Positions 4,366 to 23,703 of a stretch of 24,817 nt of DNA are shown here, one piece after another. Position 1 is the stretch's first letter. Each line of letters opens with the position of its first letter. The stretch is from Nitrospinota bacterium (GTDB taxonomy: Bacteria > Nitrospinota > Nitrospinia > JACRGO01). Position numbers and translations under genes: made by a program. The notes beneath the pieces are model-generated. The model saw only the letters and a program-made list of their open reading frames with translations, ran no database searches and was not told where the DNA came from. The DNA lies in NCBI GenBank assembly GCA_016212295.1, contig JACRGO010000006.1, forward strand, positions 1 to 24,817. Reading direction: 5' to 3'.

Positions 4366-4920
4366 TCCATAAAAAAAACCTTTGAACGGAGCATTGCGGT
4401 CAAGCAAATGGCGCTTGAAACCCTGGTGGACCCGATAGCTGAAGCAGCTACGGCGATGGCTTCCTGCCTGAGGGAGGGGAAAAAGATCGTTTTAATGGGC
4501 AACGGAGGAAGCGCGGCGGACGCCCAGCATATCGCCGCGGAATTCGTGGGCCGCTTCCTTAAGGAAAGAAGGCCTCTCCCGGCCATTGCATTGACCACCG
4601 ACGCCTCCATTCTTACCGCCATTGGAAATGATTACGGGTTTGAAAAGGTCTTTGAAAGGCAGGTGGAGGCGCTCGTCCGCGAAGGCGATGTTGTTATCGG
4701 GATCAGCACGAGCGGCAACTCGGAGAACGTGCTCGCGGCCCTGAAAAAATCCAGGGAGCTTGGCGCCAGGACCATTGCGCTGCTGGGCTGCGGAGGGGGA
4801 AAAATCGCGCTGGAAGCGGATATACCCATAACGGTGCCTTCAAGCGAGACCCCGAGGATTCAGGAGACCCATATCACCATAGGACACATTCTTTGCGAGG
4901 AGGCGGAAAGGAATGCCTGA
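4357..4920 (+). CDS. gmhA: Sedoheptulose-7-phosphate isomerase
   Basis: A 187-residue SIS-domain protein (E. coli GmhA is 192). GmhA converts sedoheptulose 7-phosphate to D-glycero-D-manno-heptose 7-phosphate, the first step to ADP-heptose for the LPS inner core. The phosphosugar loop MGNGGSAADAQHIAAEFVGR is at about 47-66, a second Ser/Thr loop GISTSGNSENV at about 113-123, and the C-terminal RIQETHITIGHILCE carries the conserved Gln and His of the active site. An in-frame TTG at 4339 would add six residues, but lies in a hairpin repeat; the ATG is preferred although it lacks a clear ribosome binding site. The stop overlaps the hldE start by 8 bases, so translation is probably coupled. Confidence 0.93.
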   Translation: MKNSIKKTFERSIAVKQMALETLVDPIAEAATAMASCLREGKKIVLMGNGGSAADAQHIAAEFVGRFLKERRPLPAIALTTDASILTAIGNDYGFEKVFERQVEALVREGDVVIGISTSGNSENVLAALKKSRELGARTIALLGCGGGKIALEADIPITVPSSETPRIQETHITIGHILCEEAERNA

Positions 4921-6382
4921 GGTCTTGAAAAAAATATTTGAAAGCGACCGGATGCCTAGGGTCCTGGTTGTCGGTGATATTATCCTGGACGAATATATCT
5001 GGGGCAGCGTGGAGCGCATCTCCCCCGAGGCCCCGGTTAAGATACTGGACAGCAAGGCGGAAAACATGGTCCCGGGCGGGGCGGCCAACGTGGCCAACAA
5101 CCTGGCCGCCATGGGCTGTGAAACCATTTTATGCGGGGCGGTGGGCAGGGACGAAAAAGGTGGAAAGCTCCTGGACCTTATAAAGAAGATAGGCATTGAT
5201 TGCTCAGGGGTGTTGAATTTCGTCCAGCGGCCCACCACCAACAAGATCAGGGTGATCGCCCATAACCAGCAGATCCTCAGAATAGACAAGGAAGACCGCA
5301 GCCCCATCCAGGCGGAGACCGAGGAGAAAATCATTGAGTTTATCCATGATACCGTCCCTCAAGTTGACGGGATCATCTGCTCGGATTATAACAAGGGGAT
5401 ACTGGCGGAAAACGTCTTGAAGGCGGTGATCCACAGGGCCAGGCAGCACAGGAAGCAGGTTATTCTGGATCCCAAGGGCCTGGATTTTTCCAAATACAAC
5501 GGGGTCCATTGCATAACCCCCAATGAAAAGGAAGTGGAGAGGGCATGCCCCATCAAGATCCAGGGCGAGGAAGACCTGGAGCGGGCGGTGCAATACCTTT
5601 TCGGATTGATCAAGGCCGAGGCAATCCTGGTCACGAGGGGGAAGGACGGCATGTCCCTTTTCGAGGAGGGAGGGAAAAAGTCGACGAAAATCGACGCGGA
5701 CGCAAGGGAGGTGTTTGACGTCACCGGCGCGGGAGACACCACCATCGCTGTCTTCGGCATGGCGCTTTTTTACGGATTTGACTACCTGAACGCAGCCAGG
5801 CTTGCCAACATGGCTGCCGGAATAGTGGTGGGAAAGGTGGGGACCTCCGTGGTCACCAGGGAAGAGTTGAATCTTTTCCTGACGGAGGGAAAGCTCCTCT
5901 CATCCAGGAACATTCTCAGCCAGAACGAGCTCCAGCAAGTGGTCTGCCAAGCCAAGAGCATGGGAAAGAAGGTGGTTTTCACAAACGGCTGCTTCGATAT
6001 CCTCCACGGCGGCCATATTGAATTCCTTCAGCAGGCCAGGTCCATGGGAGACTTCCTCGTGGTGGGGATCAACAGCGATTCCTCCGTGAAGGGCCTGAAA
6101 GGCAGCGGGCGTCCGATAAAGACCCAAACGGAGCGGGCAAGCATTCTGGCAGCCCTCAAATACGTGGACGCAATAACCATTTTTTCAGAGCCCACGCCGT
6201 ATAAGCTCATAAGTGAATTAAAGCCTGACGTTCTCGTCAAGGGGAGCGACTATAAGGTCGACGAGGTGGTGGGAAAGGACATAGTGGAAGGTTACGGGGG
6301 AAAGGTAAAGCTGGTACAGATAGTCGAGGGCCTCTCCACCACTAGGCTTGTTGAGAAAATAAGAAATAACAATAAAACATAG
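4913..6382 (+). CDS. hldE: Bifunctional heptose-7-phosphate kinase / heptose-1-phosphate adenylyltransferase
   Basis: A 489-residue two-domain enzyme with the normal HldE order. The N-terminal ribokinase-like (PfkB) kinase spans about 1-325, with the GGAANVANN substrate segment at 55-63 and the catalytic DVTGAGDT at 269-276. The C-terminal nucleotidyltransferase spans about 350-489, with TNGCFDILHGGH carrying the HxGH motif at 365-368. It phosphorylates heptose 7-phosphate at C1 and, after GmhB, transfers AMP to heptose 1-phosphate. GmhB and HldD are not in the window. It overlaps gmhA by 8 bases, with GGAAAGG just before its ATG. Its stop codon touches a GCCGCGCTATG repeat. Identification is firm. 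Confidence 0.96.
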   Translation: MPEVLKKIFESDRMPRVLVVGDIILDEYIWGSVERISPEAPVKILDSKAENMVPGGAANVANNLAAMGCETILCGAVGRDEKGGKLLDLIKKIGIDCSGVLNFVQRPTTNKIRVIAHNQQILRIDKEDRSPIQAETEEKIIEFIHDTVPQVDGIICSDYNKGILAENVLKAVIHRARQHRKQVILDPKGLDFSKYNGVHCITPNEKEVERACPIKIQGEEDLERAVQYLFGLIKAEAILVTRGKDGMSLFEEGGKKSTKIDADAREVFDVTGAGDTTIAVFGMALFYGFDYLNAARLANMAAGIVVGKVGTSVVTREELNLFLTEGKLLSSRNILSQNELQQVVCQAKSMGKKVVFTNGCFDILHGGHIEFLQQARSMGDFLVVGINSDSSVKGLKGSGRPIKTQTERASILAALKYVDAITIFSEPTPYKLISELKPDVLVKGSDYKVDEVVGKDIVEGYGGKVKLVQIVEGLSTTRLVEKIRNNNKT

Positions 6383-7924: not shown

Positions 7925-8012
7925 TTTCCAGCGGCATACCAGATACCCTTGTGATTTCCCGCTGCTTGCCGTCACCTATAAATTCCCCTCTTGAGAGGGG
8001 TGGCTGAAGGCC
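7869..8012. repeat. 33-bp inverted repeat coding both convergent C-termini
   Basis: The arm at 7869-7901 is the reverse complement of 7980-8012 with a single mismatch. Each arm contains the 16-bp palindrome CCCCTCTCAAGAGGGG or its complement, and the loop is 78 bases. The left arm encodes the end of RfbD and the right arm encodes the last residues (FSHPSQEGNL) of the 2108-aa protein. It can act as a bidirectional terminator; on the + strand the left palindrome is followed by AATTTGTTTTTA. Confidence 0.85.
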
Positions 8013-11000
8013 AAGGTAAACATTATTTCGTATAGCCTCAAAAGCTGGTCCAGCTTGGATCTTACCTGCCCCGTTTTTTCCAGGGAGACGGCGTCAACCG
8101 GGGACGCCTTTTTTATCTCGTCCTCAATAGCAAAAAGTTCCTTGATGGCCTTCAGCGTCTCGTGGATATTCTCTCCCCATGATTTTGCCTCTTCCTTTCC
8201 AGGCTTGGACGGCGCGTCTCCTTGCATGGACGCAAGAAGGTCCAGGATTTTGTCCAGCGCTTCATGCGCCTTCTGGCTTGGGAGATTAATGGAGGAAAGT
8301 ATCTCCCGCGCGTCCAAAAGCATCTTCAGGGCGTCTCCCTGGACGGAGATTTTCAAGGAAACCGTGTCATAGAGCCCGTAGGCATTGTCCGCGGTTTTGT
8401 AATAGACCTCCGTGGTGAGGGAAATATCACCAGGATTTCGGGGCGCCCGGATGAAAACCCTCTTCTGGATTTCCTGGCCTATCCCCAAGGTGAACTCAAA
8501 AGAGAGGCTAGCGTCATTTTCCCTTGCCCAGCCAAGGGGACCAATGGCCTCCGTCCCTTCGGGAAGGACTTCCCTTAATTTCATATTTCCATCAAACCCC
8601 AGGCTTTTCACGGTTATTTTCACAGGGATGATTCCGCCTGCAAGCAGGGCCTCCTCTTTTTGGGGCGAGGTCCATTGGATGGAATTTTTTATCACTTCCA
8701 TGAGGGTATCCTCGTTTTGGGCCGTTCTGGATTCATCAGGATCGAAGGCGAAAAAGACCGCCCTCCCGTCTCCATATTGATTCATCACCAGGCCGGGACA
8801 GGTCTTTCCTTCCTTGTCCCGGATTTCCGCCGCCACTTGCGAAGCGGACCCTTCCCTTATCTCCACCTTCGCCACTTTCCCCTTCACGGCAATTGCCCCT
8901 TGTTGAGTTATGGGACTGTCATGGAGAGAGAGTATCCGGGTTTTCTTATTCAAAAAGCCCTTGAATTTCATCCCGAAGAGGTCTGGTCCTTCTTTTTCCT
9001 CCTCTTTCCAGCGCGCGGTGATCAAACCCGTCCCGGCGTTAACCTGCTCCGCCAGCTCTTCGTCCATGCGGCCCATGAGAGGCTCATGGCCTTGGCCGAT
9101 TATATAGAGATTGTACCGGTTGGACCTCAATAGTTTCCGGAAATCATTTTTGTCATGGACGATTGTGTAATACAACCCCATCTGGTCCAAAACAGTCCGG
9201 AAAAGCCCCTTTCCAGCCGGCGCTCCTTCATCATCATCTTCCTGTTTTTTTTCTTTCCCGAGCCACAACAGGACTCGTGCGGCCTTGTCGATCTCCTTGG
9301 TGATTTTCAAGGCCGGCGTTACCGTGATGGGACCGCCGGCCAGTGGGACTTCCACGCCGTTGGACAGGACCGCCCGCAGGACAACCAGATAGGTTGTGGC
9401 GTCCCCTGTGACCGGAAGGTTCAACATGGGTATGGTTTGAATATTTTGATAGGTCCCCTGCCTTTGCAAATTCTCCGCCGTATCTACCAGGGTGTAGTAA
9501 ATCCGCCCGCTTTCCGGATCGCCTATAAGCACCTTCAAATTAAGTCCGGGGACCCCTTCATTGCCCAGGTTCGTGACCGCATATTCAATATTCAAGCTTT
9601 TCAGTTGCGGCAGTATTCGAGGCGACGGAGTGAGGCTCCCCACCAGGCCCGCTCCGGTCAAACGGGTCGACTGAATTTCAAAGGCAGTGGAGACAGTCGA
9701 CAGGAGGCTTCCGGAGGCGTCCTTTACCTCAAGCAGGGCCTTATAGGTTCCCGGCGGGTTGCCGCCGGTGTTCCAGGCGAATTGGGATTGATGAACTGCC
9801 CCGGAAACCAGGGAGATCCCGGCCACTGTACCGGAATGGACAACCAGGTTTTGCGCGTCTGAAATAGTGACTGTGGCCCGCAGGTCCGCGAAGGTGAAGG
9901 CGTCCCCGGGCCGCGCCTGGTTTGTGATGGAGGAGGACAGCATGACGGCTTCGTTGGAACGGTAAGCAACTTTATCCGCCGTCAATCTGCTCGTGAAGAG
10001 GAATCCGGCCGTGCTGTCCGGCGTGCCGGGATTGCAGTCGTTATCCAGGCCGTCTCCCATTATCTCCGCAGCGCCCGGATTGACGGCCGGGTCCCCGTCG
10101 CTGCAATCCGCCGGAGGAGAAAATCCGTCTCCGTCCACATCCGGACTAGAAGACAACGAGGTCCCCGCAACCGCCAGAACAAAGGTCTGCATACCGGTCC
10201 CGCCCTTGCCGTCCCGGACCGCGACGTAAACGGCGTGGCTGCCCGCGTCCCCCGCTCCCGGCGCCCAGGTGATTCGCCCGGTGGACGGCTCAATGGCCAT
10301 TCCCGCCGGACCTTTAAGCAGGGCGTATGCCAGGACGTCTCCATCCGGGTCCCCTGCCGCCGCATCATACACATAAGGCGCGCCTATGGAGGCCGCGGTT
10401 ACCGGCTGGGAAGTAATGGAGGGCGGATTATTGGTGGAAACAGGGGCGCCGGACCCGCAAGCGTCAGCGGCGAAAACAGCCGCGTTATTGTTTTCATCCC
10501 CTTCATTGACCCTGCCTGCTCCAAGGCCGTCGTCATCGGCCGCCGCCATCAGGGTTACAGTCCCCGCGGTTGGCGCTTGCCAGGTCCACGCCACATCCTC
10601 ATACGTTCCTGGCGCCAGGGGGCCGGTGGTTCGGGCGGTCCCCAGGAGGGTGCTGCCGGAGCTTATATCGTAGAAGGCGATCTTGGTCCCGGCGCCGATA
10701 TTCACGCCTCCCCCGTTGCCGATCCGCACAGTAACATCCGCGGAGGCCGGACAATCGGCCTGGCCGATGCGCGGGAAGGAGGCGGTGACGTCAGGGGCCA
10801 GGTTCAAGGCCGCGCTAAGCTGCACGTTGGCGCGGTAGTTGTTGTATATTTCCCAGTTATTCAGTTCCCGCGCCGGAATGGTCCCGTCTTCGTTCACATT
10901 GGTAACGTGATAGGTGTGCTGGTTCCATATCCTACGGGTATTGGCCCAATCGCCGTCCTTGGACTCAAAGACCCGCACCCCGTTTTCCACGCCCCCGAAC

Positions 11001-14000
11001 AACTGGTTGGACACCACCACGATTTCGGCCTGGCCGTCGTTGTCCACATCGGCCACCACCGGATATTCTAGCTTGGTTCCGGAGGGGTTCCGGGTGGAGA
11101 AAAGGACCTCTCCCGTGGACCCTTTGTACACGCGCAAATAGTCCTGGTCTCCGTAAAGGACCTCCGCGCTCCCGTCTCCCTCGAAATCGAAAACCGTGGA
11201 CCCCGTGATGGCGGAGCTTTCGTCATTGGTCGGCGAGAGCCACCGCACGCCGCCGTCAGTCTCGAAGACCACGTAGTGGCGCCCGCCGGCCACGCCGATC
11301 TCCGGCGCGCCGTCTCCGTCAAAGTCCGCCACCGTGGGAGGGCCTCCATCGCCGCCGTAGCCGGCGAAGACCGGACCCCATTTGACGGACCCGTCGTGTT
11401 CCAGCAGCCATACATATCCGCCGGCCACGACCACTATCTCCGGATACCGGTCCGAGTCGAAGTTTCCAACCGCGTTATAACCATCTCCCACGCCGGCGTT
11501 CCGCCAGAAGATCGTGCCGTTTGCCCTATACGCCGTGTTTCCAGCCACCACTTCCGGGGTCCCGTCAAGGTCGAGGTCAGCCGCAAGGGAGGTATATACC
11601 GCCGTTCCCCCGCCGCCTTTCCAAAGCACGGCGCCCTTGGAATCTATCACCGTGGCGCCCACGATGATCTCAGGCTGCCCGTCTCCGTTGAGGTCCGCTA
11701 TGGCGGGACTGCCGTACCAGGTGGTGGGTATATATTTCGTGGTCTCCCACTTCAGGGTCCCGTCATGCTCAAAGGCCAACATTTGGGCCGAAGAGGGATA
11801 CCATCCGGCTGTTTTCATGACAATAATTTCAGGCAGGCCGTCTCCGTCAATGTCCCCCACCGCCGGAGAAACGCCTGGTATGGTCGTGTAACCGGCTGCA
11901 GTGAAAATCTCCCTTCCGTCAGCTCCGCTGACTGCCCGTAAAACTCCGTTTGTTTGATAGTTGGAGTTATAAGAATTGAAAATGACGTCCGGTATGTCAT
12001 TTGCGTCGATCTTCCCGTCCCCGTTGTCGTCGGTGAGATTGGCCACAGCCGGCGCGCACATCACCTGGTCGTGGGAAGGCATGACCGCGCTCCTCTTCCA
12101 CCACCATTTCAGAACAGGAGACAAGGGACCGGGAGGCGGATAAAACCTGCCCGCCCGGCCGCTGTCCGTTATGTTGTTGGACTCGTCCGCCTCAGCCACC
12201 GCGTTGCCGCTGTCCACCCAGGCGTGGATAAGATTGTCCCGGAACAGGACCGCGCCTGAAATATTCACCGGGACCGTCACCTGCTCGCCTGAGGCCAGGG
12301 GGGCCGCGTATTCAGCGGAGCCAAGGACCGGGTCCCCTCCAGCGTCGAAAAGGCCGTTCAGGTTGCGGTCCTCGAATAGGAGGATGGAGAAAGCTCCCGG
12401 CGTGGCCGCGTCCCCGGCGTTGCCGGTCCGCACCCCAACGGTTCCAGTGATTTCCAGGGTTTGGGTATCAGTGGACGCGCCCGATTTGTCCACTGCCGCT
12501 GCCACGAGGTCAGGCCCGGCGGAGGACAGGGAGACCACGATAATAAAACTCTGGCTGTCAGTTCCGCCCCTGCCGTCCCTGGCGTACAGGGTGACCCGGC
12601 TCTCGCCCGCTGCTGCGGGGGTCCAGGTGATCAGGCCGGAAGCAGGGTCGATATTCATCCCCTGCGGGGCCATGGACAGGGTGTAAGTGACCGGGTCGCC
12701 GTCCGCGTCCCCGGCCATGATCTGGTAACTATAAGAGGACCCCACTGTGGCATGGGAGATTGGGGTGGAAGTAATGGCCGGGGGATGGTTGGCGCCCGGG
12801 GCTCCGCTGTCCACGCTGATAATAAAGGATTGGGAGTCCGCGCCCCCCTTGGGGTCGCGGGTCCCCACTACGATGCGGTGGTCCCCGGCCTGCGTGGAAC
12901 CAGGGGTCCAGGTGATAAGCCCTGTGGCGGGGTCGATGGCCATGCCCGCTGGGGCGATAAGGAGGCTGTAGGTGATAGGGCCGCCGTCCGGGTCCGCAAC
13001 GTCCACGTCATAGGTATAGAGCGTATTCACTGTTGCCGAGGAGGAGGGCGCGGAGGTGATCCTCGGCGGCTGGTTCACGGACGCCGATACTATCTGTAAA
13101 ACTTCACTGGATTCGTTGTCCGCCTCGTTGGCTTCCTGGATAAGGTCGCCTGGGTCCGCCTGGACCAAAATCACCTGGCTGCCGGAATATCCGGTGGCGT
13201 CAAGGACAATACTCGCCGTGGCGGACAATCCCGCGCTCACGACAGGAATTACGGTTTCCCCGATCATGGCCGCGTTGTTGCTGGAATCCAGGATGGAAAA
13301 CCGCGCGGTGACGGAGTTGGCCGCCGCAAGGCCCGTATTATTGATCTGGGCCGTGATGGTGACCGTTTCTCCAGGATTCGGCGTTGGATTGGAAAAGCTC
13401 ACCGCACCCACGGAAAGGTTTGGCCTCACCATGGCCAGCGCCCTTAGGGCCAGGGCCGTGGAATAGGGGTCGTCGTTCCAGGAGCCGTTAATTTGCTGGC
13501 TGGCGGTGAGATAGTTAAGGACTCTTTGCGCCGCCGCAAGGTTCGCTGGGGTGAAGGCCCCGCTTTCCACCAAGGCGATAAACGCCAGGGCGGATTCATA
13601 AACCGTTGATACCGGGCCTGCGTTGAATCCTCCGTCCGCGTTTTGCGTGGAAAAAAGAAATGCGGAAGCCTTATCTATGGTGGCTTGCAGATTATATATT
13701 GTTTTGTATCGCGAAAGGGCATTGAGGGCCAGGGCTGTGAGATAGACATTGCCCGGCTCTCCCTGGGAAAGGGTCCACCCACCGTCCGTCTGCTGCCTGG
13801 AAGAGAGGAAGGCCAGGGCTGAGGAAAGGGACGGTCCGGCAGGTTGGCCGGAGGCCGCCAGGGCCTTGAGGGCAAAGGCGGTATCTAACATGGCGCTCTC
13901 GTAATCAGGAAAACCCCCGAACCCGCTGTCCGGGTTTTGATGGGTGAAAAGCGCGGAAACAAGCAGTGAAATATCGTTGCCCGCTGGACTGTTCACCATG

Positions 14001-14302
14001 ATTTTCCGGGAAAGATATTCGGTGTTGATCTCTGTGTTATTATTGAGAAAGGCAAGGGCCGGACCGTAAGGGGACCGTGCCTGCTCTCCCAGGGCCTGAT
14101 AGGTCTTGAGGACCTCCGCCGTGGACTGCACCGAAGTGGTCAGCGAAGCGGGCGTATTGCCGAAACCGCCGTTCATGTTCTGCTGAGTGGCCAGCCAGTC
14201 CAACCCTGTGGCCGCTTGGGCGGCAAGGGGAAAACCAAAAAAGAAGAGGAAAAGCAAGACTGCGCAAAACAACGTATTTTTTTTCTTTTCGCTGGTTTTC
14301 AT
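7976..14302 (-). CDS. Giant secreted multidomain protein (toroid, CARDB, He_PIG, FG-GAP)
   Basis: A 2108-residue exported protein with signal peptide 1-31. In order: a squalene-cyclase/prenyltransferase-like alpha-alpha toroid with repeated QQxxDGGW/GGF motifs (about 33-292); a CARDB domain (295-405); two He_PIG/cadherin-like domains (412-498, 506-592); a second CARDB-like domain (597-715); FG-GAP/VCBS repeats with DxDGDGxPEI calcium loops forming a propeller (745-1115); a third CARDB-like domain (1170-1282); a third He_PIG (1291-1380); a MopE-like DVDGDGFSPPADCSDGD metal-binding motif (1388-1430); two further beta domains (1435-1670); a glutamine-amidotransferase-like fold (1675-1880); a DUF11-like domain (1885-1997); and a helical tail. 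It probably works at the cell surface in adhesion or matrix building. The toroid lacks an alpha-2-macroglobulin CLEQ thioester motif. GGAAGGGA precedes the ATG, which overlaps the fragment stop as ATGA. Confidence 0.85.
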   Translation of the reverse strand: MKTSEKKKNTLFCAVLLFLFFFGFPLAAQAATGLDWLATQQNMNGGFGNTPASLTTSVQSTAEVLKTYQALGEQARSPYGPALAFLNNNTEINTEYLSRKIMVNSPAGNDISLLVSALFTHQNPDSGFGGFPDYESAMLDTAFALKALAASGQPAGPSLSSALAFLSSRQQTDGGWTLSQGEPGNVYLTALALNALSRYKTIYNLQATIDKASAFLFSTQNADGGFNAGPVSTVYESALAFIALVESGAFTPANLAAAQRVLNYLTASQQINGSWNDDPYSTALALRALAMVRPNLSVGAVSFSNPTPNPGETVTITAQINNTGLAAANSVTARFSILDSSNNAAMIGETVIPVVSAGLSATASIVLDATGYSGSQVILVQADPGDLIQEANEADNESSEVLQIVSASVNQPPRITSAPSSSATVNTLYTYDVDVADPDGGPITYSLLIAPAGMAIDPATGLITWTPGSTQAGDHRIVVGTRDPKGGADSQSFIISVDSGAPGANHPPAITSTPISHATVGSSYSYQIMAGDADGDPVTYTLSMAPQGMNIDPASGLITWTPAAAGESRVTLYARDGRGGTDSQSFIIVVSLSSAGPDLVAAAVDKSGASTDTQTLEITGTVGVRTGNAGDAATPGAFSILLFEDRNLNGLFDAGGDPVLGSAEYAAPLASGEQVTVPVNISGAVLFRDNLIHAWVDSGNAVAEADESNNITDSGRAGRFYPPPGPLSPVLKWWWKRSAVMPSHDQVMCAPAVANLTDDNGDGKIDANDIPDVIFNSYNSNYQTNGVLRAVSGADGREIFTAAGYTTIPGVSPAVGDIDGDGLPEIIVMKTAGWYPSSAQMLAFEHDGTLKWETTKYIPTTWYGSPAIADLNGDGQPEIIVGATVIDSKGAVLWKGGGGTAVYTSLAADLDLDGTPEVVAGNTAYRANGTIFWRNAGVGDGYNAVGNFDSDRYPEIVVVAGGYVWLLEHDGSVKWGPVFAGYGGDGGPPTVADFDGDGAPEIGVAGGRHYVVFETDGGVRWLSPTNDESSAITGSTVFDFEGDGSAEVLYGDQDYLRVYKGSTGEVLFSTRNPSGTKLEYPVVADVDNDGQAEIVVVSNQLFGGVENGVRVFESKDGDWANTRRIWNQHTYHVTNVNEDGTIPARELNNWEIYNNYRANVQLSAALNLAPDVTASFPRIGQADCPASADVTVRIGNGGGVNIGAGTKIAFYDISSGSTLLGTARTTGPLAPGTYEDVAWTWQAPTAGTVTLMAAADDDGLGAGRVNEGDENNNAAVFAADACGSGAPVSTNNPPSITSQPVTAASIGAPYVYDAAAGDPDGDVLAYALLKGPAGMAIEPSTGRITWAPGAGDAGSHAVYVAVRDGKGGTGMQTFVLAVAGTSLSSSPDVDGDGFSPPADCSDGDPAVNPGAAEIMGDGLDNDCNPGTPDSTAGFLFTSRLTADKVAYRSNEAVMLSSSITNQARPGDAFTFADLRATVTISDAQNLVVHSGTVAGISLVSGAVHQSQFAWNTGGNPPGTYKALLEVKDASGSLLSTVSTAFEIQSTRLTGAGLVGSLTPSPRILPQLKSLNIEYAVTNLGNEGVPGLNLKVLIGDPESGRIYYTLVDTAENLQRQGTYQNIQTIPMLNLPVTGDATTYLVVLRAVLSNGVEVPLAGGPITVTPALKITKEIDKAARVLLWLGKEKKQEDDDEGAPAGKGLFRTVLDQMGLYYTIVHDKNDFRKLLRSNRYNLYIIGQGHEPLMGRMDEELAEQVNAGTGLITARWKEEEKEGPDLFGMKFKGFLNKKTRILSLHDSPITQQGAIAVKGKVAKVEIREGSASQVAAEIRDKEGKTCPGLVMNQYGDGRAVFFAFDPDESRTAQNEDTLMEVIKNSIQWTSPQKEEALLAGGIIPVKITVKSLGFDGNMKLREVLPEGTEAIGPLGWARENDASLSFEFTLGIGQEIQKRVFIRAPRNPGDISLTTEVYYKTADNAYGLYDTVSLKISVQGDALKMLLDAREILSSINLPSQKAHEALDKILDLLASMQGDAPSKPGKEEAKSWGENIHETLKAIKELFAIEDEIKKASPVDAVSLEKTGQVRSKLDQLLRLYEIMFTLAFSHPSQEGNL

Positions 14303-14896
14303 AAGAGTCCCTTCCTTATAACAGTATGGCGCATAATTGCATTAAGGTTTTTATCCATATAGGTTGGCTTCTCACGGAGCTGTAAATTTGTTGTTTGGCT
14401 AGTTCCTCCTCCAGCCAATCCTCCGCTTATCATATAAGCGCCAGCACCAGTTGTCGGGTCTAAAACTACATGTCCAACGCCTTTCCAGTCGTAATACTGG
14501 ACTTCCGATTGTGAAACGATGACCTTCTTTCCGGCGTTTATTGAGTTTTGTATCTCTGTCTTTACATCACTTGATATTTGAAGGGTTGAAAGGAGTTGGC
14601 CGACATTGCCGCTGTCAATCGTCAATATTGAAATGCCTTGCTGATTCGCATATTTCAATAATTTCATTGCTGATACCGAAGGTGTATTTACAAATGCCTC
14701 GAATATCCTGTGTTCCCAGGCTGATGAGGTCGTGCCTGAAATATTCATGAATACTTTGCTTCTATTCGTATCGCCTGTAAAAGAGGCTGTTGAATAAACA
14801 TCTCAGTCTACATCTATGCTCAAACCGCTCTGACTTGCCGAGCGAGGAACGCCAAAAAGATAGGAGATGTTTATATCAAGAGTTTCAATAGCCTCT
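14299..14896 (-). pseudogene. Truncated, nonsense-disrupted copy of the transglutaminase-like protein
   Basis: This repeats residues about 695-850 of the 1036-aa neighbour. Homology starts at an EAIETLDINISYLFG segment and runs through GVPRSASQSGL and NISGTTSSAWEHR to YMISGGLAGGG, after which a different 23-residue-scale tail follows, ending NAIMRHTVIRKGLL. A TGA at about 14806-14808 replaces the AGA arginine codon of the parent (DVDRDVY becomes DVD-stop-DVY). The remaining open frame, 149 codons from the ATG at 14748, has no Shine-Dalgarno sequence or signal peptide. DNA identity is about 97% for 14414-14729 but only about 82% for 14761-14880. The stop overlaps the 2108-aa start (ATGA), so any translation would be coupled to that gene. 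It may be a decayed gene or a silent recombination module. Confidence 0.85.
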
Positions 14897-14941
14897 GGCA
14901 TTTGTCTTTTGTCTCATATGAATCTCCACTCACTCCCCCAC

Positions 14942-15895
14942 TTAATACCAATCAGGACTGCTCCCTTCAGTAATTTTTATAGGTACCCCACTTTCTATAT
15001 CTAAAATGTATATCTTTGAAACATCCGGCCCTGTTTCCATGCCACAGGCATAAACAAGGTGTTTTGAATCAGGACTCCAAGAAATAGAATTACACCAATC
15101 GCTATAATCTCTTCTCACATCAGCCAATTCAAAGACTTTGTTTTGTTCCACATCAAAGATAACCAACGCTTTACCTGGAATCTCACCTTTTAAATATGCA
15201 ATCTTTTTCCCATCCTTTGACCAGGCTGGTAAATCTCCTGCATCAAATCCTATATCTTTGCTACTCTTTGTAGATATATCAACCAAACTCATTTTCCGCA
15301 GGTATTTAAAGTATCGCAATTCCTTTTTTTTATCGGGAGAGGGAATTATCTGATAAAATTTATCTCTCTCAGTATATGGTAAAATTACTTGCTGTTGAGA
15401 TGTCTCTACGTTAACCATATTTTCCTGCAGCGGACTAGCAGGCAGACCTGATGAAAAATATATATTTTTTCCGTTATTATCCCACTGCGGCATTTGAGAA
15501 AAATTCGTAGAAAGATGTGGGAATTTTTGTTTGCCTAATACATCTACTATAGAGGGTGTATATGTCAATCTTCTCTGGTTCGTTCCATCTGTATTCATAA
15601 GATATATCTCCATATTATTATCCTTATGACGAGTAGAAACAAAGGCTATCTTTTTTCCATCAGAAGACCATTTAGGTTGTTCATTATTCTTGGTTTTAGT
15701 CAATCGTTTTACTTTGCCACTTTTGCCATTTAATATATAAATATCAGTTCCTTTACCAACTTCAAATTGGCTTTGAAAGACAATCTTTCCTTCAAATATA
15801 AGTAGATCCTTAGCAAAGCTATTGCTACTATACAGAAAATAAAATAACAATAAAATAACATATAGAAAAACTTTATTGCTTTTTTTAATAAGCAT
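14942..15895 (-). CDS. Secreted TolB-like (PD40) beta-propeller protein
   Basis: A 317-residue protein with a signal peptide (about 1-29, ending NSFAKD). The mature part repeats the WD40-like PD40 pattern of TolB: DIYILNGKSGKVKRLT, PKWSSDGKKIAFVSTR, EIYLMNTDGTNQRRLT, PAWSKDGKKIAYLKG and SISWSPDSKHLVYACG. This fits a periplasmic propeller of about six blades without the TolB N-terminal domain. An in-frame start at 15940 would overlap the upstream gene; the ATG at 15895 is preferred because AAAGGAG sits 8 bases before it. It begins 13 bases after the stop of the 1036-aa gene, so the two are co-transcribed. The gene is visibly more AT-rich than its surroundings, as is the C-terminal part of the preceding gene. 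A role as partner or immunity protein for the NlpC/P60 domain is inference only. Confidence 0.82.
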   Translation of the reverse strand: MLIKKSNKVFLYVILLLFYFLYSSNSFAKDLLIFEGKIVFQSQFEVGKGTDIYILNGKSGKVKRLTKTKNNEQPKWSSDGKKIAFVSTRHKDNNMEIYLMNTDGTNQRRLTYTPSIVDVLGKQKFPHLSTNFSQMPQWDNNGKNIYFSSGLPASPLQENMVNVETSQQQVILPYTERDKFYQIIPSPDKKKELRYFKYLRKMSLVDISTKSSKDIGFDAGDLPAWSKDGKKIAYLKGEIPGKALVIFDVEQNKVFELADVRRDYSDWCNSISWSPDSKHLVYACGMETGPDVSKIYILDIESGVPIKITEGSSPDWY

Positions 15896-15908
15896 AACAT
15901 TGACTCCT

Positions 15909-18900
15909 TTAAGGATTAGTGGATGGGAATACGGTTCCATAACCTACAAATGCATCTTGCTTATTTATTTTAGTCTTGAAATATCCTTTGACCGAATAAA
16001 ACTCTACCCCAAGCGTTACACCAGCAGATACCATTACATCATTCCAGAGATATATCCCAACATGGGTTATACCATCATCTTCCTTGAGGTTTTTATTCCT
16101 ATCGTCAGTATTTTGGAAAAATACAAGGTCTCCGGTTTGGGGGTATGAAGTGAGTCCATTCTGAGCTACAATAAAATCATATTGTATTTGTGCATTTTTT
16201 GGATTTGATGGTGTTCCCATAACATTGATCCCAGATTGGGTATAGACATAGCTCACTAACCCTGAACAATCTATTTTATTTTTACAAGTCGATGGTATTG
16301 GTGTGAAAGGGTCTTTGCAGCCAAATCCATAAAGCGTTCCAACCATGCCTATAGCGTTTACCATAATAGAGTATCTCAATACTTTAACGGTATTTATGTA
16401 TGAATACGAACTTTTATCCATCGTAATAGGTGGATTAGAATTAGTAGGAATGGTAGCCGTCCCTCCACCCGCCAATCCTCCGCTTATCATATAAGCGCCA
16501 GCACCAGTTGTCGGGTCTAAAACTACATATCCAACGCCTTTCCAGTCGTAATACTGGACTTCCGATTGTGACACGATGACCTTCTTTCCGGCATTTATCG
16601 CGTTTTGTATCTCTGTCTTTACATCGCTTGATATTTGAAGGGTTGAAAGGAGTTGGCCGATATTGCCGCTGTCAATCGTCAATATTGAAATGCCTTGCTG
16701 GTTCGCATATTTCAGTAATTTCATTGCTGATACCGAAGGTGTATTTACAAATGCTTCGAATATCCTGTGTTCCCAGGCTGATGAGGCCATGCCGGAGATA
16801 TTCATAAATGCCTTGCTTCTATTCGTATCTCCTGCAAGGGAGGCTGTTGAGTAAACATCTCTGTCAACATCTATGTTTAACCCACCTTGACTTGCTGAAC
16901 GCGGAATACCAAAGAAATAGGATATGTTTATATCCAGTGTGGTTATTGCTTCTGAAGGATGCTTCAGATATGCCATCTGGAAGGTCTTGGCATAAAGGTC
17001 GTTCTCAAAGGTGAGGTGGTGGAAGTAGGAAAGGCCGATGGAGTAGAGAAGCTCTCCCAACAGGTCGTCCAGAGTAACTGCATCTATATTCTTTGAGTTG
17101 TTCTGAAGTTTCTCCATCCTTGCACCGGCTACTTCCACAGGCGTCTTGTTTGCTTGTATTGTTATGGCAGAATATGTGCCTGCTATTACATTGTTTTGAA
17201 CTATATCCGACCCAAAGGCCGGTGTGTAAATATTCACTGCGAAGGTTTGTGTTGTGCCCATCCCCACACTGCCGCCGGTTACCGCATCAATACCGTCTGC
17301 TTTTAACACCGGCTTTACTTTCAGAAGGTAGGGCGGGACATTGAGCATATCCCCGCCGTATTGCGTTACAAGGGTTTCATCGCTGGATGTTGCCGGGATA
17401 TAGGAAAGGGTAATCCTTTTGTCGCTGAGCTCCGGAAGTGTTTCGGTAACCGAGGAGCCGCCTTCGCCGAACATGTCCGTTGAGATTTGTAATGTAACTT
17501 TATGTCTCATGCTGTCCGGGACTGTGGAATATTTGCTTCCTTGAACTACAACCTTGTATGGCAATGTTCCCAACAGATATGGGAAGGTATGCTGATTAAT
17601 AACTTTCGTGGAAGGCAGGTCTTGTGCGCCGAGGATGTCTTCTATTGTTGCCGTAGGCATATTCGCATCCAGCCAGGCAAGCATCTGCTTACCGTATTGC
17701 TGATACGGAGTTATGTCTTGTATATCCGAAATATAGCCGCTCATAAACTGGTCGCCGTTGAAGGAAAGCGAGGAATATAAATCCAGTCCTGTTTCATAGG
17801 TATACTGTTTGAACGATGCATCCAACGGTATCCATGTATCACCCTGCTTATGCACCGCCCCTCTTGATGGAATATAATCCACATACGCTTCCACCCAAAC
17901 ATGCTCCATTTGAATTTTAATGACCTGTCCGTCTGATGTAACTAGCTGGGCCGGAGTACCGCCGCTGACAATGAAGTTCCCGGCGGCAACAGGATCGGTA
18001 AATCCTCCCGCCCAATTCATGGCTTTATCGATGGGAACTTCAATGGCGCCGTGGACATAACGGGCCGGGATGTTAGAGACGCGAAGGAGGGCGATCAGGA
18101 GACTGGCCGTATCAAAGGAATTACACTGTTTTGTCTGCAAGCACATGTCCGCCCCTTGGATGGAGCCGTAGGTGGGAACAAATTCTATGTTGTTCCGCAC
18201 CCATTCATATATTTTTATGGGCTCATTGTTCAATTGGGCCGCCAAATCCTGGATATCTTGAGCGAATTGGACCTCAATGGTTTCATTAAGGTCTTCCGGC
18301 GTTGGGAGGTCCTGCGTTACCTGGGCCATAAGGAAGGCGGATGGGTCGCCGTTATAGGCCAGGAGGATCGGTTCATTTTGAAATTCCGAGTACTCTTCTT
18401 TTTTCAGGCGGGGTTTTTGCTTTTTGATCTTCGGCGTTCTGTGAGGCAGGTTGTCGGGGTCCACTGGAGTGTGCATGTGTTTCTTCTGTTTCTTCTCTAA
18501 ATGCTCCTTGGCTTTTTTGGCCTTGATCTTGCGGTCCTCATGGTCTACGGACCCTTCAACGGCATCGAGGTTCTCCAGCAGGGTCCGGATTTCAGTTTGG
18601 TACGAGGCCAGGGCCTGGTAATGCCGGTCTAAGATGACCTGGGGAAGCTTTTTCGCCTTCAGGTCTTTTTCTATCTTTTGAAAGTTCTCTTTCGCCTTTT
18701 GATCCAGCTTCCTCAGTTTCTTTTTGAGCTTTTTGAGATCGTCTTTCTCAAGGGAATCCTCTTCTCCCTTTAGCAGCTTTTCCTCAAGCTTGCCCAGCTT
18801 CTCTTCGATCTCTTCCAGGGTGCGGGAGAGTTCCTCCTCTTCCGAGACGCGTTTTTCCTGCGTCCCGGTTTCGGTCCTGCTGGACCTCTCGGACGCCTCC

Positions 18901-19019
18901 TTGGCCGCCAGGACCACGGGAAAGATGAATGCCCAAAGGAAAATGGCCAAGGTAAAAGCGGTGACGGATTTAAAAATAGCACGATGATAATGGACCCATG
19001 AAAAGAATGGAAATTTCAT
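15909..19019 (-). CDS. Secreted transglutaminase-like protein with C-terminal NlpC/P60 domain
   Basis: A 1036-residue exported protein. Residues 1-39 form a signal peptide; 55-200 are a Lys/Glu-rich coiled coil; 255-410 hold a transglutaminase-like core with the triad Cys299 (KQCNSFDTASLL), His373 (MEHVWVEAY) and Asp400 (WIPLDASF). The middle (about 480-850) is of unknown fold and ends in YMISGGLAGGG. Residues about 880-1036 are an NlpC/P60 cysteine peptidase domain with Cys918 in IDCSGLVSYVY and His986 in THVGIYLW, likely to cut peptidoglycan peptides. The ATG has GGAGGG upstream. DNA encoding the last roughly 185 residues is AT-rich unlike the rest, pointing to a replaced C-terminal module. 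It heads a four-part - strand cluster ending in the 2108-aa protein. Domain calls are firm; biological role is unknown. Confidence 0.87.
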   Translation of the reverse strand: MKFPFFSWVHYHRAIFKSVTAFTLAIFLWAFIFPVVLAAKEASERSSRTETGTQEKRVSEEEELSRTLEEIEEKLGKLEEKLLKGEEDSLEKDDLKKLKKKLRKLDQKAKENFQKIEKDLKAKKLPQVILDRHYQALASYQTEIRTLLENLDAVEGSVDHEDRKIKAKKAKEHLEKKQKKHMHTPVDPDNLPHRTPKIKKQKPRLKKEEYSEFQNEPILLAYNGDPSAFLMAQVTQDLPTPEDLNETIEVQFAQDIQDLAAQLNNEPIKIYEWVRNNIEFVPTYGSIQGADMCLQTKQCNSFDTASLLIALLRVSNIPARYVHGAIEVPIDKAMNWAGGFTDPVAAGNFIVSGGTPAQLVTSDGQVIKIQMEHVWVEAYVDYIPSRGAVHKQGDTWIPLDASFKQYTYETGLDLYSSLSFNGDQFMSGYISDIQDITPYQQYGKQMLAWLDANMPTATIEDILGAQDLPSTKVINQHTFPYLLGTLPYKVVVQGSKYSTVPDSMRHKVTLQISTDMFGEGGSSVTETLPELSDKRITLSYIPATSSDETLVTQYGGDMLNVPPYLLKVKPVLKADGIDAVTGGSVGMGTTQTFAVNIYTPAFGSDIVQNNVIAGTYSAITIQANKTPVEVAGARMEKLQNNSKNIDAVTLDDLLGELLYSIGLSYFHHLTFENDLYAKTFQMAYLKHPSEAITTLDINISYFFGIPRSASQGGLNIDVDRDVYSTASLAGDTNRSKAFMNISGMASSAWEHRIFEAFVNTPSVSAMKLLKYANQQGISILTIDSGNIGQLLSTLQISSDVKTEIQNAINAGKKVIVSQSEVQYYDWKGVGYVVLDPTTGAGAYMISGGLAGGGTATIPTNSNPPITMDKSSYSYINTVKVLRYSIMVNAIGMVGTLYGFGCKDPFTPIPSTCKNKIDCSGLVSYVYTQSGINVMGTPSNPKNAQIQYDFIVAQNGLTSYPQTGDLVFFQNTDDRNKNLKEDDGITHVGIYLWNDVMVSAGVTLGVEFYSVKGYFKTKINKQDAFVGYGTVFPSTNP

Positions 19020-19202: not shown

Positions 19203-19301
19203 TAGGGAAAGGTTAGGCCGCACCATTGCCAGCGCCCTTAAGGCCAGGGCCGTGGAATATGGGCCGTCATTCCAGGAGCCGTTGGGAAGCTGGGCGTCAA
19301 T
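19203..19301 (-). pseudogene. Relic of a second copy of the 2108-aa gene
   Basis: Read on the - strand this gives IDAQLPNGSWNDGPYSTALA followed by LRALAMVRPNLS. It matches the toroid end of the 2108-aa protein (QQINGSWNDDPYSTALALRALAMVRPNLS, about residues 269-297, DNA 13410-13500) almost residue for residue. DNA identity is roughly 80-85% over about 90 bases. Both ends fall away abruptly and no start or long frame remains. Confidence 0.85.
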
Positions 19302-19596
19302 GAATGATTTTTTCGTTTATCTCAACCTATTTAGGACTTACGTGGATCAGACATTTTTCCCTTAGATCGCTCCTTGGTAAAAAAATCAAAAAAGAGGGCC
19401 GGGGAGACGTTTGCATTAAGATTGACTTTCAATGGCTTTCTTGCTAAGTTTTAGCAGGATTTTATGGGAAATAAAATAAATTCCCGCAAGCGTGGAAGCA
19501 GAAGTGGGCATGGAAAGAAATCGCATACCGCGCTCCGCCCCTCCGGTCCTCTTCTCTAAACGAAGCTCTTTAGAAGATCATCCGAGATCGCAAGAG

Positions 19597-22500
19597 ATGA
19601 AAAGAAATCCCTGGGTTGCCATCGGGTTCCTTGCATTGGTTTCATCGGTTGGCCTCTCCATCTGGGCAGGTCTGGCGGTTGACGGCATTAAAGCGCCTAC
19701 AAGACTCGTTAAGGGACCTGATGAGACCGTCTACGTCCTTGCCTATGACAAAATTGTCAAGGTTTCAGTTTATGGAGATGTCCTTCAAACCTACGGCCTC
19801 AATTCGGATCTTCGCTTGGGAGAACCGGTTGCGGATTTCTACATCGAGCCAAACGGTGATTTGCTGGTCGGCCTCGCGGACTCCCAAGAGATCCGAATCT
19901 ATTCCAAGGATGGGAAATATCTTCGCACTCACTCGAGAAAATCTTCTCCTCCGCCACGGGAACAAAGCCGCGACTTTCGATTTACCAAAGACCCGGAAAG
20001 CGGCCGACTCTACGTGGCCGATACCTTCCACAACAGGATTCAAATATACGGCGGCAACGAGAAGGAAATTTCATCTCTGACGAGCTTTTTGGGAATCCCT
20101 CTCGGCCATCCCAACGGCATGGTCTTCGAGGACGGGAATCTCTTTGCCACGGACCGCGACCATAGCCGTGTTTTGGTTCTCGGACCAGACGGCGAAGTCA
20201 AACGAGCGATCCAATTGAATTCAATTCTCCGATCGTTAAATACCCTCCCTCTTAGAATTTCGCCTTCGGGTGAAAACATCTTTGTGCTTTCGCGCCCCCC
20301 ACTGCCTATGCCGGGGCGGGAAGTCCACATCGTATTTCCGGAACCTAAAAATATCGGGGCGATTGGCCTCTCAAAGGATCCTCGGGCCGCGATCGCGCAA
20401 GCCATGGAGATGGACCGTGGACCCAGCAGACCCATTCACAAGGGTGAATTTCTTGACCTCCAGGACGTGCTGGCCAGGGCGGACGACGTATTGATCGCCG
20501 ATACTGGATCAATGAAAGTTCTTCGGTTTTCACACCATGGGGAAGCTTTGGAGTTTTTCGGAAAGGATTCCCTTGAACGCGTGCTTTCAAAAGTCCGGGG
20601 GAAGCGAAAGGCATTGGAACTTATGTATCCTATATCCATTGCTGGGGCGTGTGTTGTTCTGGCCGCTTTCCTGATTGCGTTGCGAAGGGAAAGAAAGGCC
20701 TCGGCATCAGTTGCAACACCACTTCGTCCACAGGGAAGGCTATGGATACAAGAACTCCTGGGCTCCAGAGACAGCCGACGGCGGAAGATGTTGCTTGTCC
20801 TGTTGCCCTGTCTTGGGCAGGTTGCCGTAGGAAAAGATTTCAGGGCTTTTTTATATCTTGTTCCTTTAATCGCCTTTTTGTCTCTGACGGTGGAACTCAT
20901 ATCAGCCTATTTTTTCGACCTTTCCGTCATTCCCAGCGTCATTAACCAGGTTGCCCTTATTACGGCGGTCTTATGCATCAGCATCTACACCTGGGTTTTT
21001 ATGGTGGTGGATGCCTTGCGGCTGGATCGCTCCGCCGGTTTGCCGCTAAAAACCCTACCATTTAGATACAAAATCCTTTGGAATGTACTCCCTCTTGTTA
21101 CCGCTGTTCTGGGCGCGGGAGGCCAGTTCGCCCAGGAATATCTGGTCAAATATTTTCCCGCGGTCGGGAATTCTTTAAAAACCATATTCATAAATTTTTT
21201 GGCGTCGCTAAAATATAGCTCACTTTTTGCGGTTTTGTATGGCGAGTTTCTTTCAAGGAACCTTATCGCATGGGGAACAACAACCGCTTTCATTTTCGGA
21301 TCGATGGCATGGCTAATCTCTTCCAGAAAGCCTGACGTATTGGCTATGGGTTTTCTGGGTCTAATCTCAGGGGCTCTCTTGTGGATGGTGGCAGTCGCTT
21401 CTTGCGGGATAGTTTTTGATGATCCCCAAACCGGATCGCTGATAACTTTCCCCGTCCAGGGATTTGCCACAGGCTTGTTGTTGTACCTTGTCGCGGGGCC
21501 ATCACGCCTTTCGTTTCTGATCATTCCCGCCGCCTTGTCCGCTACCTGGGTTGGACTGATCCTCGCTGCCTTCACAATCTTTATGGGAAATTCCATATAC
21601 GGCGCATCCTTTATTTATATGGCTGTCATTCCATTCGTTGTTCACCAGGCCGTTCTTCGCGTTACATTTTCCTTGGGAACCATTCAGGCATATACCCCTC
21701 CTTCCGAACCTGGCCGCTTCATTTTATTGAAGCCCATCGGCTGGGCAAGCCTGATCTTGCTCTTGGTATCCGTAGCCGGAGGGATCTATCTCAACAGGCC
21801 CATGACGGGCAATCAACTATCGGCGCTGACTGAAAGACTTGTGTTTCTCAGGAATACAGAGGCTCTGGCCCTGGAGGAACTCGATGGCCTTAATGATAAT
21901 GATAAGCTCAAACTGGTTCCTGAACTCATATCAAGCATTAAGAATAATCCCGGCCCCGTTGCTTATTACGGTAACAGAGCTGCAACTGCTTTAGGCCGAA
22001 TCGGGCCCATCGCCGTTCCACAACTCATAGAGGCGTTGAAGGATACTAATCACTCAGTAAGGTATTTTGCCGCGAAATCCTTGGGCCTCATGGGGCCAGA
22101 CGCAAAGGCGGCCGTGCCGGCCTTGGCTGCAAATTTGAAGGACAAAGATGATACCGTCCGTTATGGAACAGCGGAGTTCCTAGGAATGATCGGACCGGCG
22201 GCGGAAGAAGCCGTTCAAGCCTTGATTGATACCCTGCGAAATGACGAGTATGATCTTGCGCGCGAATATGCGGTAATAGCCATAGGGAAAATTGGGACAC
22301 AGACTCCGGATGTTATGAGCGCTCTTGTTGATGCCGTTCGAGATCCGGATCATTCCGTTGCACACAAGGCAGCCGAGGCGCTTAGCGCCATGGGCGCAAG
22401 GGCCGTTCCGGAACTTACGGAGTTACTTAAAAGTCCGGCAAAGAGCATCCGCTACCGTGCTATCACAGCGCTTGCGAGCATCGGGCCTGATGCCAAACAA

Positions 22501-23703
22501 TCCGGCCTATCCCTCTTATCAGCACTCAGGGACGATGATGAAAACATCCGCCTTGCCGCGGAGCGCGCGCTTGCGAAGATCGATCCCAATCTCACCTTGC
22601 CCGTTAATGATCTTATTCTACATTTAACACAAGGTGATGAGAAAAAGAGGATTTCAGCGGCCTTCGCATTAGGGAAGAGTGGAGAAGAAGCAGCCACGGC
22701 GCTTATCCCTCTTATAAAAGACGGGAACTTTGAGATTCGATTGCTGGCGATAAACGCCCTCGGAATGATTGGGCCTCCAGCCCAAAAAGCCGTTCCAATC
22801 CTAGAGAAATTACTGAAAGACAAGGAACAAGCCATCCGCGGAAACGCCGCCTGGGCCTTGGGAGAGATAGATATGGACCGCAAGCCAGGGGCCGAAACGG
22901 TGGCCGACCAACTAGCAGGGATCGATAAACTTGTGGAGGGCTCCATGACACCGCTAGGGGACAGGGCCTATGCAAGCAGTGGAAGGCTCCTGGTATATGC
23001 CATCGAACGCCTCGAGGGCCTGGAAAAGAAATACCCCAGGTCTTCCGAGATGGATATGATATTATTCATGTCGGGGAACATCAAGTCCGCCATAGGCGGC
23101 ATGACGGACGCTGTGTATGGAGATTCTCCGGAGAAAGTTTATGTAGACACTCATCGTGACCAATATGATTTTCCGTATTTGGCGGTTGTATATAAAGGAA
23201 GCGCATTCCATAATATCATTAAGGACTACCCCGATAGCCCATGGGTCGACGACGCGGCTTTTGCCTTGGCAATAAACAAGACCAAGGGAGGAGAATGTGA
23301 AAGCGATTTCAATTGTCGCGTAAGCCGCTCTGTCGGCGCATTACTTCCATTCATAGAAGATTATCCGAATAGCCAGAAAATTTCGGGAGCCGTTCAGAAC
23401 ATCAATCAGGATATCTTACAACTTGCGATCAATCCTGAAGAGTATGGAAACTGGGTCGTTGACGTCACGAAGGAGTCAAGACAACTTCTCGACGAATACC
23501 ATGAAGCGCTCCTCTCCGTGCCGAGCCTGTCCATCCGCTCGGAGGCGCTATATCCCCTGGCATGGACCTACCTCAGGGACAAACAATACAGTCGCGCTGA
23601 TTCCATCTTTAAAGACCTCCTCGACAATTATTCCAACCTTGAGAATCGTGAAGACATCGAAAAGGCACGGGAGGAATTGAAGGCATTGATACAGAAACCA
23701 TGA
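19597..23703 (+). CDS. Giant membrane protein: NHL propeller, TM bundle, HEAT repeats, TPR-like tail
   Basis: A 1368-residue protein from this ATG; in-frame starts at 19492 (GTG) and 19510 would add up to 35 residues before the hydrophobic N-terminus, and none has a strong ribosome binding site. Residues 5-28 are a signal or anchor helix. Residues about 30-320 form an NHL-type propeller (GRLYVADTFHNRIQIY, DDVLIADTGSMKVLRFS). About ten transmembrane segments lie between 343 and 733. HEAT/PBS-lyase-like repeats span about 780-1095, with recurring AAxALGxIGP and AVPxLxxxLKD units. A helical TPR-like region ends the protein (about 1120-1368; YPLAWTYLRDKQYSRADSIF). The HEAT and TPR parts should act as binding scaffolds at the membrane; the side they face is unclear. 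I do not recognise a named family. It ends 5 bases before the stop of the convergent downstream gene. Confidence 0.82.
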   Translation: MKRNPWVAIGFLALVSSVGLSIWAGLAVDGIKAPTRLVKGPDETVYVLAYDKIVKVSVYGDVLQTYGLNSDLRLGEPVADFYIEPNGDLLVGLADSQEIRIYSKDGKYLRTHSRKSSPPPREQSRDFRFTKDPESGRLYVADTFHNRIQIYGGNEKEISSLTSFLGIPLGHPNGMVFEDGNLFATDRDHSRVLVLGPDGEVKRAIQLNSILRSLNTLPLRISPSGENIFVLSRPPLPMPGREVHIVFPEPKNIGAIGLSKDPRAAIAQAMEMDRGPSRPIHKGEFLDLQDVLARADDVLIADTGSMKVLRFSHHGEALEFFGKDSLERVLSKVRGKRKALELMYPISIAGACVVLAAFLIALRRERKASASVATPLRPQGRLWIQELLGSRDSRRRKMLLVLLPCLGQVAVGKDFRAFLYLVPLIAFLSLTVELISAYFFDLSVIPSVINQVALITAVLCISIYTWVFMVVDALRLDRSAGLPLKTLPFRYKILWNVLPLVTAVLGAGGQFAQEYLVKYFPAVGNSLKTIFINFLASLKYSSLFAVLYGEFLSRNLIAWGTTTAFIFGSMAWLISSRKPDVLAMGFLGLISGALLWMVAVASCGIVFDDPQTGSLITFPVQGFATGLLLYLVAGPSRLSFLIIPAALSATWVGLILAAFTIFMGNSIYGASFIYMAVIPFVVHQAVLRVTFSLGTIQAYTPPSEPGRFILLKPIGWASLILLLVSVAGGIYLNRPMTGNQLSALTERLVFLRNTEALALEELDGLNDNDKLKLVPELISSIKNNPGPVAYYGNRAATALGRIGPIAVPQLIEALKDTNHSVRYFAAKSLGLMGPDAKAAVPALAANLKDKDDTVRYGTAEFLGMIGPAAEEAVQALIDTLRNDEYDLAREYAVIAIGKIGTQTPDVMSALVDAVRDPDHSVAHKAAEALSAMGARAVPELTELLKSPAKSIRYRAITALASIGPDAKQSGLSLLSALRDDDENIRLAAERALAKIDPNLTLPVNDLILHLTQGDEKKRISAAFALGKSGEEAATALIPLIKDGNFEIRLLAINALGMIGPPAQKAVPILEKLLKDKEQAIRGNAAWALGEIDMDRKPGAETVADQLAGIDKLVEGSMTPLGDRAYASSGRLLVYAIERLEGLEKKYPRSSEMDMILFMSGNIKSAIGGMTDAVYGDSPEKVYVDTHRDQYDFPYLAVVYKGSAFHNIIKDYPDSPWVDDAAFALAINKTKGGECESDFNCRVSRSVGALLPFIEDYPNSQKISGAVQNINQDILQLAINPEEYGNWVVDVTKESRQLLDEYHEALLSVPSLSIRSEALYPLAWTYLRDKQYSRADSIFKDLLDNYSNLENREDIEKAREELKALIQKP

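Follow-up and report, generated by a model that had tools for sequence, protein, structure and literature searches.

A predicted polymorphic toxin–immunity locus in a Nitrospinota bacterium, with a transglutaminase-fold carrier that lacks RHS repeats

Introduction

Does a large secreted protein of a Nitrospinota bacterium, which ends in an NlpC/P60 peptidase domain, carry an exchangeable toxin, and could the propeller gene that follows it encode the matching immunity protein? The protein is encoded on a stretch of 24,817 nucleotides, referred to here as the window, which is one entire contig (JACRGO010000006.1, assembly GCA_016212295.1) of a 3.7 Mb draft genome. The relevant genes all lie on the minus strand, in the order carrier, PD40 propeller gene, degenerate partial carrier copy and toroid/CARDB/FG-GAP gene (Table 1). 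An earlier interpretation made without database searches (the sequence-only reading) had proposed a polymorphic-toxin-like locus with an exchangeable C-terminal cassette. We now consider it highly probable that the locus is a polymorphic toxin–immunity system, in which a Sec-exported carrier would present a cassette-exchanged effector encoded next to its immunity gene. To judge from its sequence, the carrier is a new variety of polymorphic toxin carrier: it is RHS-less, its pre-toxin domain lies outside Pfam, its NlpC tail is paired with a propeller as immunity candidate, and a toroid gene is found next.

Results

Tails diverge at a conserved junction

A single-sequence scan of genome contigs for relatives found nothing, and relatives were retrieved with an alignment of the pre-toxin domain instead. 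The alignment found 24 loci in named genomes, including Geobacter argillaceus and Geothermobacter hydrogeniphilus; the domain is present in 23 of 141 genomes (16%) of the G. argillaceus order and in 47 of 395 genomes (about 12%) sampled from the phylum of the Nitrospirae genome G101. Relatives were very scarce in the window's own phylum (2 of 77 genomes, its own genome counted), and tail variability was therefore compared across phyla rather than strains. The resulting set numbers 75 homologous sequences, carriers as well as cassettes, whose sources include Nitrospirota, Geobacterales and Firmicutes; all share pre-toxin similarity by selection.

Beyond the pre-toxin domain the similarity largely disappears: it extends to the tails in only 116 of 2775 pairs, the 75 sequences fall into 40 single-linkage clusters, and the divergence sets in at a GGLxGG motif. 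The sequence-only reading had anticipated this pattern for an alignment of homologous C-termini, and the alignment indeed gives unrelated tails after the motif, each with its own co-varying downstream gene, rather than a uniform NlpC/P60 C-terminus or a junction without a break. The tail kinds that we could recognise, in addition to NlpC/P60, are an M15 peptidase (locus L145), prokaryotic phospholipase A2-like tails (L077 and L070, with matches below the Pfam cut-off), caspase-like tails (12 sequences with His-Gly and Ser-Cys motifs and very weak Pfam support), RHYT tails that, judged by that motif alone, resemble ADP-ribosyltransferase (ART) toxins, and numerous small tails for which between one and five membrane segments are predicted. 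Attempts to assign the last group to known pore families did not succeed, and none of the 30 tails scanned matched a nuclease family above cut-off. The richest arsenal that we saw is that of Candidatus Magnetocorallium paracelense (genome G116, loci L033 and L120-L125), with ten pre-toxin copies and many different tails.

Neighbouring genes co-vary with the tails

The gene after the tail changes along with it. For 71 tail–neighbour pairs, neighbours were similar in 26 of 88 tail-similar pairs, compared with 9 of 2397 other pairs, a co-variation reached in 0 of 2000 permutations (an exact number that should not be over-read, since related sequences are not independent). Their predicted locations, called by a simple hydropathy rule, follow the tails as well: at least two transmembrane (TM) segments were predicted for the neighbours of 34 of 38 membrane tails as against 4 of 30 soluble tails (p 1.2e-10), soluble-tail loci had a secreted-type neighbour in 26 of 30 cases, and the neighbours of all three RHYT tails were soluble and without signal. 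This fits the expectation for immunity proteins, in that the predicted location of the neighbour matches the likely site of action of the tail. Beside one caspase-like tail, a secreted gene (L141, 5878-7014, minus strand) weakly matches serpins (E 0.0014, below cut-off) and possibly encodes an immunity protein of the protease-inhibitor type.

Two genomes, L018 and L029, capture a natural swap of a tail-plus-neighbour cassette: their 4.6 kb downstream flanks are 96.1% identical and their pre-toxin segments 89% identical, whereas their tails and next genes are unrelated, with the break at the GG codons. The L029 cassette matches one in a Nitrospirae genome (L016) in both tail (E 1e-48) and neighbour (E 1e-81). 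Orphan cassettes, each with its own neighbour, were found in G095, L022, L028, L030 and L033. The 40 tail clusters, the neighbour co-variation and this swap together bear out the earlier proposal of an exchangeable C-terminal cassette.

The carrier has an incomplete transglutaminase triad and no RHS repeats

The carrier begins with an export signal and a charged, coiled linker that runs to about residue 230. Then come a transglutaminase-fold domain, a middle section of beta-rich domains, the pre-toxin domain and the NlpC/P60 tail. Most of the 16 full-length homologues that were aligned share the carrier's N-terminal region. Its transglutaminase-like character, noted earlier, is upheld by a Transglut_core match (PF01841, E 1.8e-15) and needs one refinement. 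His373 and Asp400 are invariant in the 16 homologues, but alignment to 3isr_A, which fixes the register, places Ser301 on the catalytic Cys, and this column holds Ser, Ala, Asp or Met across the homologues. The domain is predicted to be inactive because the catalytic Cys is missing from all 16 carriers, and on the same ground we rejected an active transglutaminase, whether for crosslinking or for self-processing.

A Pfam scan of the carrier found no match to RHS repeats and no family for the pre-toxin domain, for which PDB sequences gave no credible match either; it is modelled with a predicted local distance difference test (pLDDT) score mostly of about 85-95. Longer homologues from the Geobacter order (L155) and from one genome in the window's own class (L014) combine a transglutaminase domain, pre-toxin-like homology and Ig-like domains with RHS repeats, so that these relatives and the present family look like siblings, the one with and the other without RHS repeats. 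In another longer homologue (L156, 2844-11439), an alpha/beta-hydrolase domain matched weakly and RHS repeats not at all; comparable small lipoprotein-like genes and an orphan segment come after it.

The NlpC/P60 tail and the propeller gene

The description of the carrier as a secreted protein ending in NlpC/P60 agrees with its hydrophobic N-terminus and with an NLPC_P60 match to residues 895-1014 (E 3.2e-12); in structure, the tail matches the NlpC/P60 autolysin domain 7cfl (Foldseek, TMt 0.77). The catalytic positions are occupied by Cys918, His986 and, at the third, Ser998. In GC content, the tail (37.0%) and the propeller gene (33.6%) both lie below the N-terminal part of the carrier (49.1%).

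The next gene had been described as a secreted propeller, and rightly so: its product, 317 aa from the second Met (the likely start), has a hydrophobic N-terminus and PD40 repeats (E 9.4e-19), together with a match to the TolB-type model TIGR02800 below cut-off. Its AlphaFold model (pLDDT 80.6) finds TolB proteins as best PDB matches, and on this model it is a TolB-like beta-propeller. Other NlpC tails have neighbours with different propeller matches (DUF5128 in L136, SBBP in L135), DUF4424 proteins or unclassified lipoprotein-like genes.

The orphan segment and the toroid gene

The partial carrier copy shares 91% DNA identity with its parent over 482 bp, in a match that ends two bases past the GGLAGGG codons and beyond which we found no similarity between the two. 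The stop in homology had been placed at 16471 and 14414, consistent with the exact ends of the motif at 16461 (parent) and 14404 (orphan). The orphan open reading frame spans 14299-14748, and pre-toxin homology extends further, to about 14901, with in-frame TGA stops upstream of the frame. The sequence-only reading correctly recognised the parent's pre-toxin segment in it; the "different tail" that it also described is only a 34-aa truncation, which, compared with all tails, is most similar to the beginning of the NlpC tail of L015 (39 of 1000 shuffles did as well). It is probably the start of a lost NlpC-type tail, and the orphan a decayed NlpC cassette. A second, distinct toxin at this position was considered and rejected, the tail being too short and resembling the start of an NlpC tail.

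The end of the orphan overlaps the gene for a 2108-aa protein with a prenyltransferase/TED-like toroid and CARDB, He_PIG and FG-GAP domains. A toroid homologue follows the last cassette in 28 loci and in the window, versus 8 assessable loci without one; our guess is that the protein serves in surface anchoring or delivery. The short toroid remnant upstream of the carrier suggests that the unit was duplicated or exchanged. Toroid genes or fragments on both sides of the carrier also occur in L015, L033, L120 and L153, a hint of tandem duplication or exchange of entire units. In L034, from a Desulfuromonadaceae genome, an apparent direct repeat of about 1.1 kb (4780-5895 and 9691-10809), with the same predicted proteins, flanks the carrier gene.

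Table 1. Features of the locus in the window (positions in the 24,817-nucleotide stretch)
Feature	Position	Strand	Details and basis
Carrier gene	15909..19019	-	1036 aa; Pfam
Carrier export signal, hydrophobic N-terminus	18906..19019	-	residues 1-38; sequence
Transglutaminase-fold domain, predicted inactive	17817..18266	-	residues 252-401; Pfam PF01841, alignment of 16 carriers, alignment to 3isr_A
Pre-toxin domain	16461..17111	-	residues 637-853, ending in TGAGAYMISGGLAGGG; alignment of homologues
GGLAGGG junction, variability breakpoint	16461..16481	-	end of orphan homology; tail divergence among homologues
C-terminal NlpC/P60 module, putative toxin	15909..16460	-	residues 854-1036; Pfam, Foldseek, GC
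Candidate immunity gene, secreted TolB-like beta-propeller	14942..15895	-	PD40, AlphaFold model
Orphan pre-toxin segment, degenerate, broken by TGA	14404..14901	-	DNA identity to carrier
Orphan tail, truncated	14299..14403	-	34 aa; best match L015 NlpC tail; overlaps start of next gene
Toroid/CARDB/FG-GAP partner gene, secreted	7976..14302	-	2108 aa; Pfam
Short toroid-gene remnant upstream of carrier	19203..19295	-	31 codons; tblastn

Discussion

A model for the locus and its alternatives

Carrier conservation, tail variability, the breakpoint, neighbour co-variation and a natural swap are all visible in the sequence comparisons; the following model adds what we infer about toxicity, immunity, the target, the route of delivery and a possible release by processing close to the GG motif. 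The carrier would be exported by Sec, and its inactive transglutaminase domain, beta-rich stalk and pre-toxin domain would present the C-terminal effector, here an NlpC/P60 peptidase predicted to cut the peptidoglycan of neighbouring cells. We expect the TolB-like propeller to bind the peptidase and inhibit it in the periplasm of the producer, as Tsi1, a partial propeller, does for the type VI secretion system (T6SS) effector Tse1, itself an NlpC/P60 protein (PMC3391265); we take that pair as a precedent of function, not as evidence of homology. Orphan pre-toxin segments, of which the window's one is decayed, would provide the homology for recombination that swaps tail and immunity gene together. 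More tentatively, and with rather more doubt than confidence, carrier and toroid/CARDB/FG-GAP protein may form an undescribed two-protein delivery system that brings effectors mainly to the envelope (periplasm or inner membrane) of neighbours. If true, this would explain why the recognised tails are mostly of peptidoglycan, lipid, membrane or protease type, why the 30 tails scanned gave no nuclease match above cut-off and why the immunity candidates are mostly secreted or membrane proteins.

Several points weigh against the toxin–immunity interpretation or parts of it. The window's NlpC copy has Ser at the third catalytic position, where several relatives have His or Asp, and its activity is uncertain for that reason. 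The only orphan in the window is the decayed one. TolB paralogues are common, so that the propeller by itself is weak evidence, and the NlpC group has no constant cognate immunity gene, because the closest relative (L015) has a gene for a 199-aa secreted protein between the NlpC tail and the PD40 genes. This last arrangement, along with the weak similarity of the window and L027 tails (E 0.028) in spite of their matching neighbours (E 6.7e-7), would also be expected if the toxin system holds and the propeller is a leftover or accessory gene rather than the immunity protein for this tail. We regard that as unlikely: a PD40 gene directly follows the NlpC tail in the window, L023 and L027, the propeller gene has the low GC of the tail, and secreted-type neighbours are the rule at soluble-tail loci.

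It is harder to sustain a role in the producer's own envelope, with the carrier as a remodelling or adhesion protein, the NlpC tail acting on the cell's own wall, the propeller as a TolB paralogue that maintains the wall or outer membrane and the orphan as what an ordinary duplication left behind. NlpC/P60 and TolB-type proteins do often serve such functions, and TolB is the best match of the propeller's fold, but the tails are so diverse that we find this account very improbable: homologous carriers bear PLA2-like, caspase-like, ART-like, M15 and TM-only tails with unrelated neighbours, and a housekeeping role does not predict that tail and neighbour change together. If anything even less probable is that recombination of the tails produces antigenic variants or variants of a phage receptor, or that the tails are aimed at eukaryotic predators instead of bacteria. 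Surface display with variation would look alike, and caspase-like and ART-like tails could act on eukaryotes; peptidoglycan-cutting tails, on the other hand, have no target there, and a co-varying neighbour located where the tail acts fits self-protection. On the preferred toxin–immunity interpretation, a single recognisable motif leads in this family to a ready supply of new effector and immunity candidates, among them TM-only tails and, for NlpC peptidases, propellers as candidate immunity proteins; the family also points to little-studied proteins of bacterial warfare and raises a testable question about delivery.

Relation to known systems

The closest precedent, described by Zhang et al. 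2012 (PMC3482391, section 19), is a class of polymorphic toxins in which an inactive transglutaminase domain near the N-terminus is always succeeded by RHS repeats. The window carrier shares with it the export signal, a nearby transglutaminase domain with an incomplete triad and the variable, here putative, C-terminal toxin, and differs in having no RHS match and in placing a pre-toxin domain directly before the tail. In the same work NlpC/P60 was predicted as a toxin domain against target cell walls in the polymorphic toxin Hoch_2166 (PMC3482391); the comparison made here covers that domain. In Tse1/Tsi1 of Pseudomonas aeruginosa (PMC3391265), the immunity protein of an NlpC/P60 effector is periplasmic and resembles a propeller (DPP IV-like); our carrier, however, has no T6SS domain match, its neighbour is TolB-like rather than a partial propeller, and we claim no homology. 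The literature searched contained no account of this RHS-less carrier family, which is not proof that there is none.

The sequence-only reading had likened the locus to CdiA, Rhs and MafB. The likeness holds for the logic: the general polymorphic-toxin features of an export signal with a conserved N-terminal part, a variable tail, a tail-specific neighbour and stand-alone cassettes with swaps are all found here. Membership does not follow for Rhs or MafB and is not established for contact-dependent inhibition (CDI). Like CdiA/CdiI, a type V secretion system (T5SS), the family combines a conserved carrier with a variable, putatively toxic C-terminus, an adjacent candidate immunity gene and orphan modules, but the carrier has no T5SS/TpsA domain match in Pfam and we noticed no CdiB-like gene in the window; a search of the window's genome for ShlB/CdiB (PF03865) gave no match, as did its control, and we do not claim that CdiB is absent. 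A variable tail after a conserved motif and orphan tail modules are shared with Rhs toxins, whose repeats and core domain the carrier lacks in the Pfam scan, as it lacks the MafB N-terminal domain (DUF1020).

Other observations

Elsewhere in the window's genome (G000:C3, 18868-19134; L158 and L159), a 419-codon frame contains two RHS repeats and is possibly another toxin remnant. Divergent from the toxin locus, on the plus strand of the window (19492-23703), lies a gene whose 1403-aa product has HEAT repeats and matches NHL weakly, and for which we found no link to the system.
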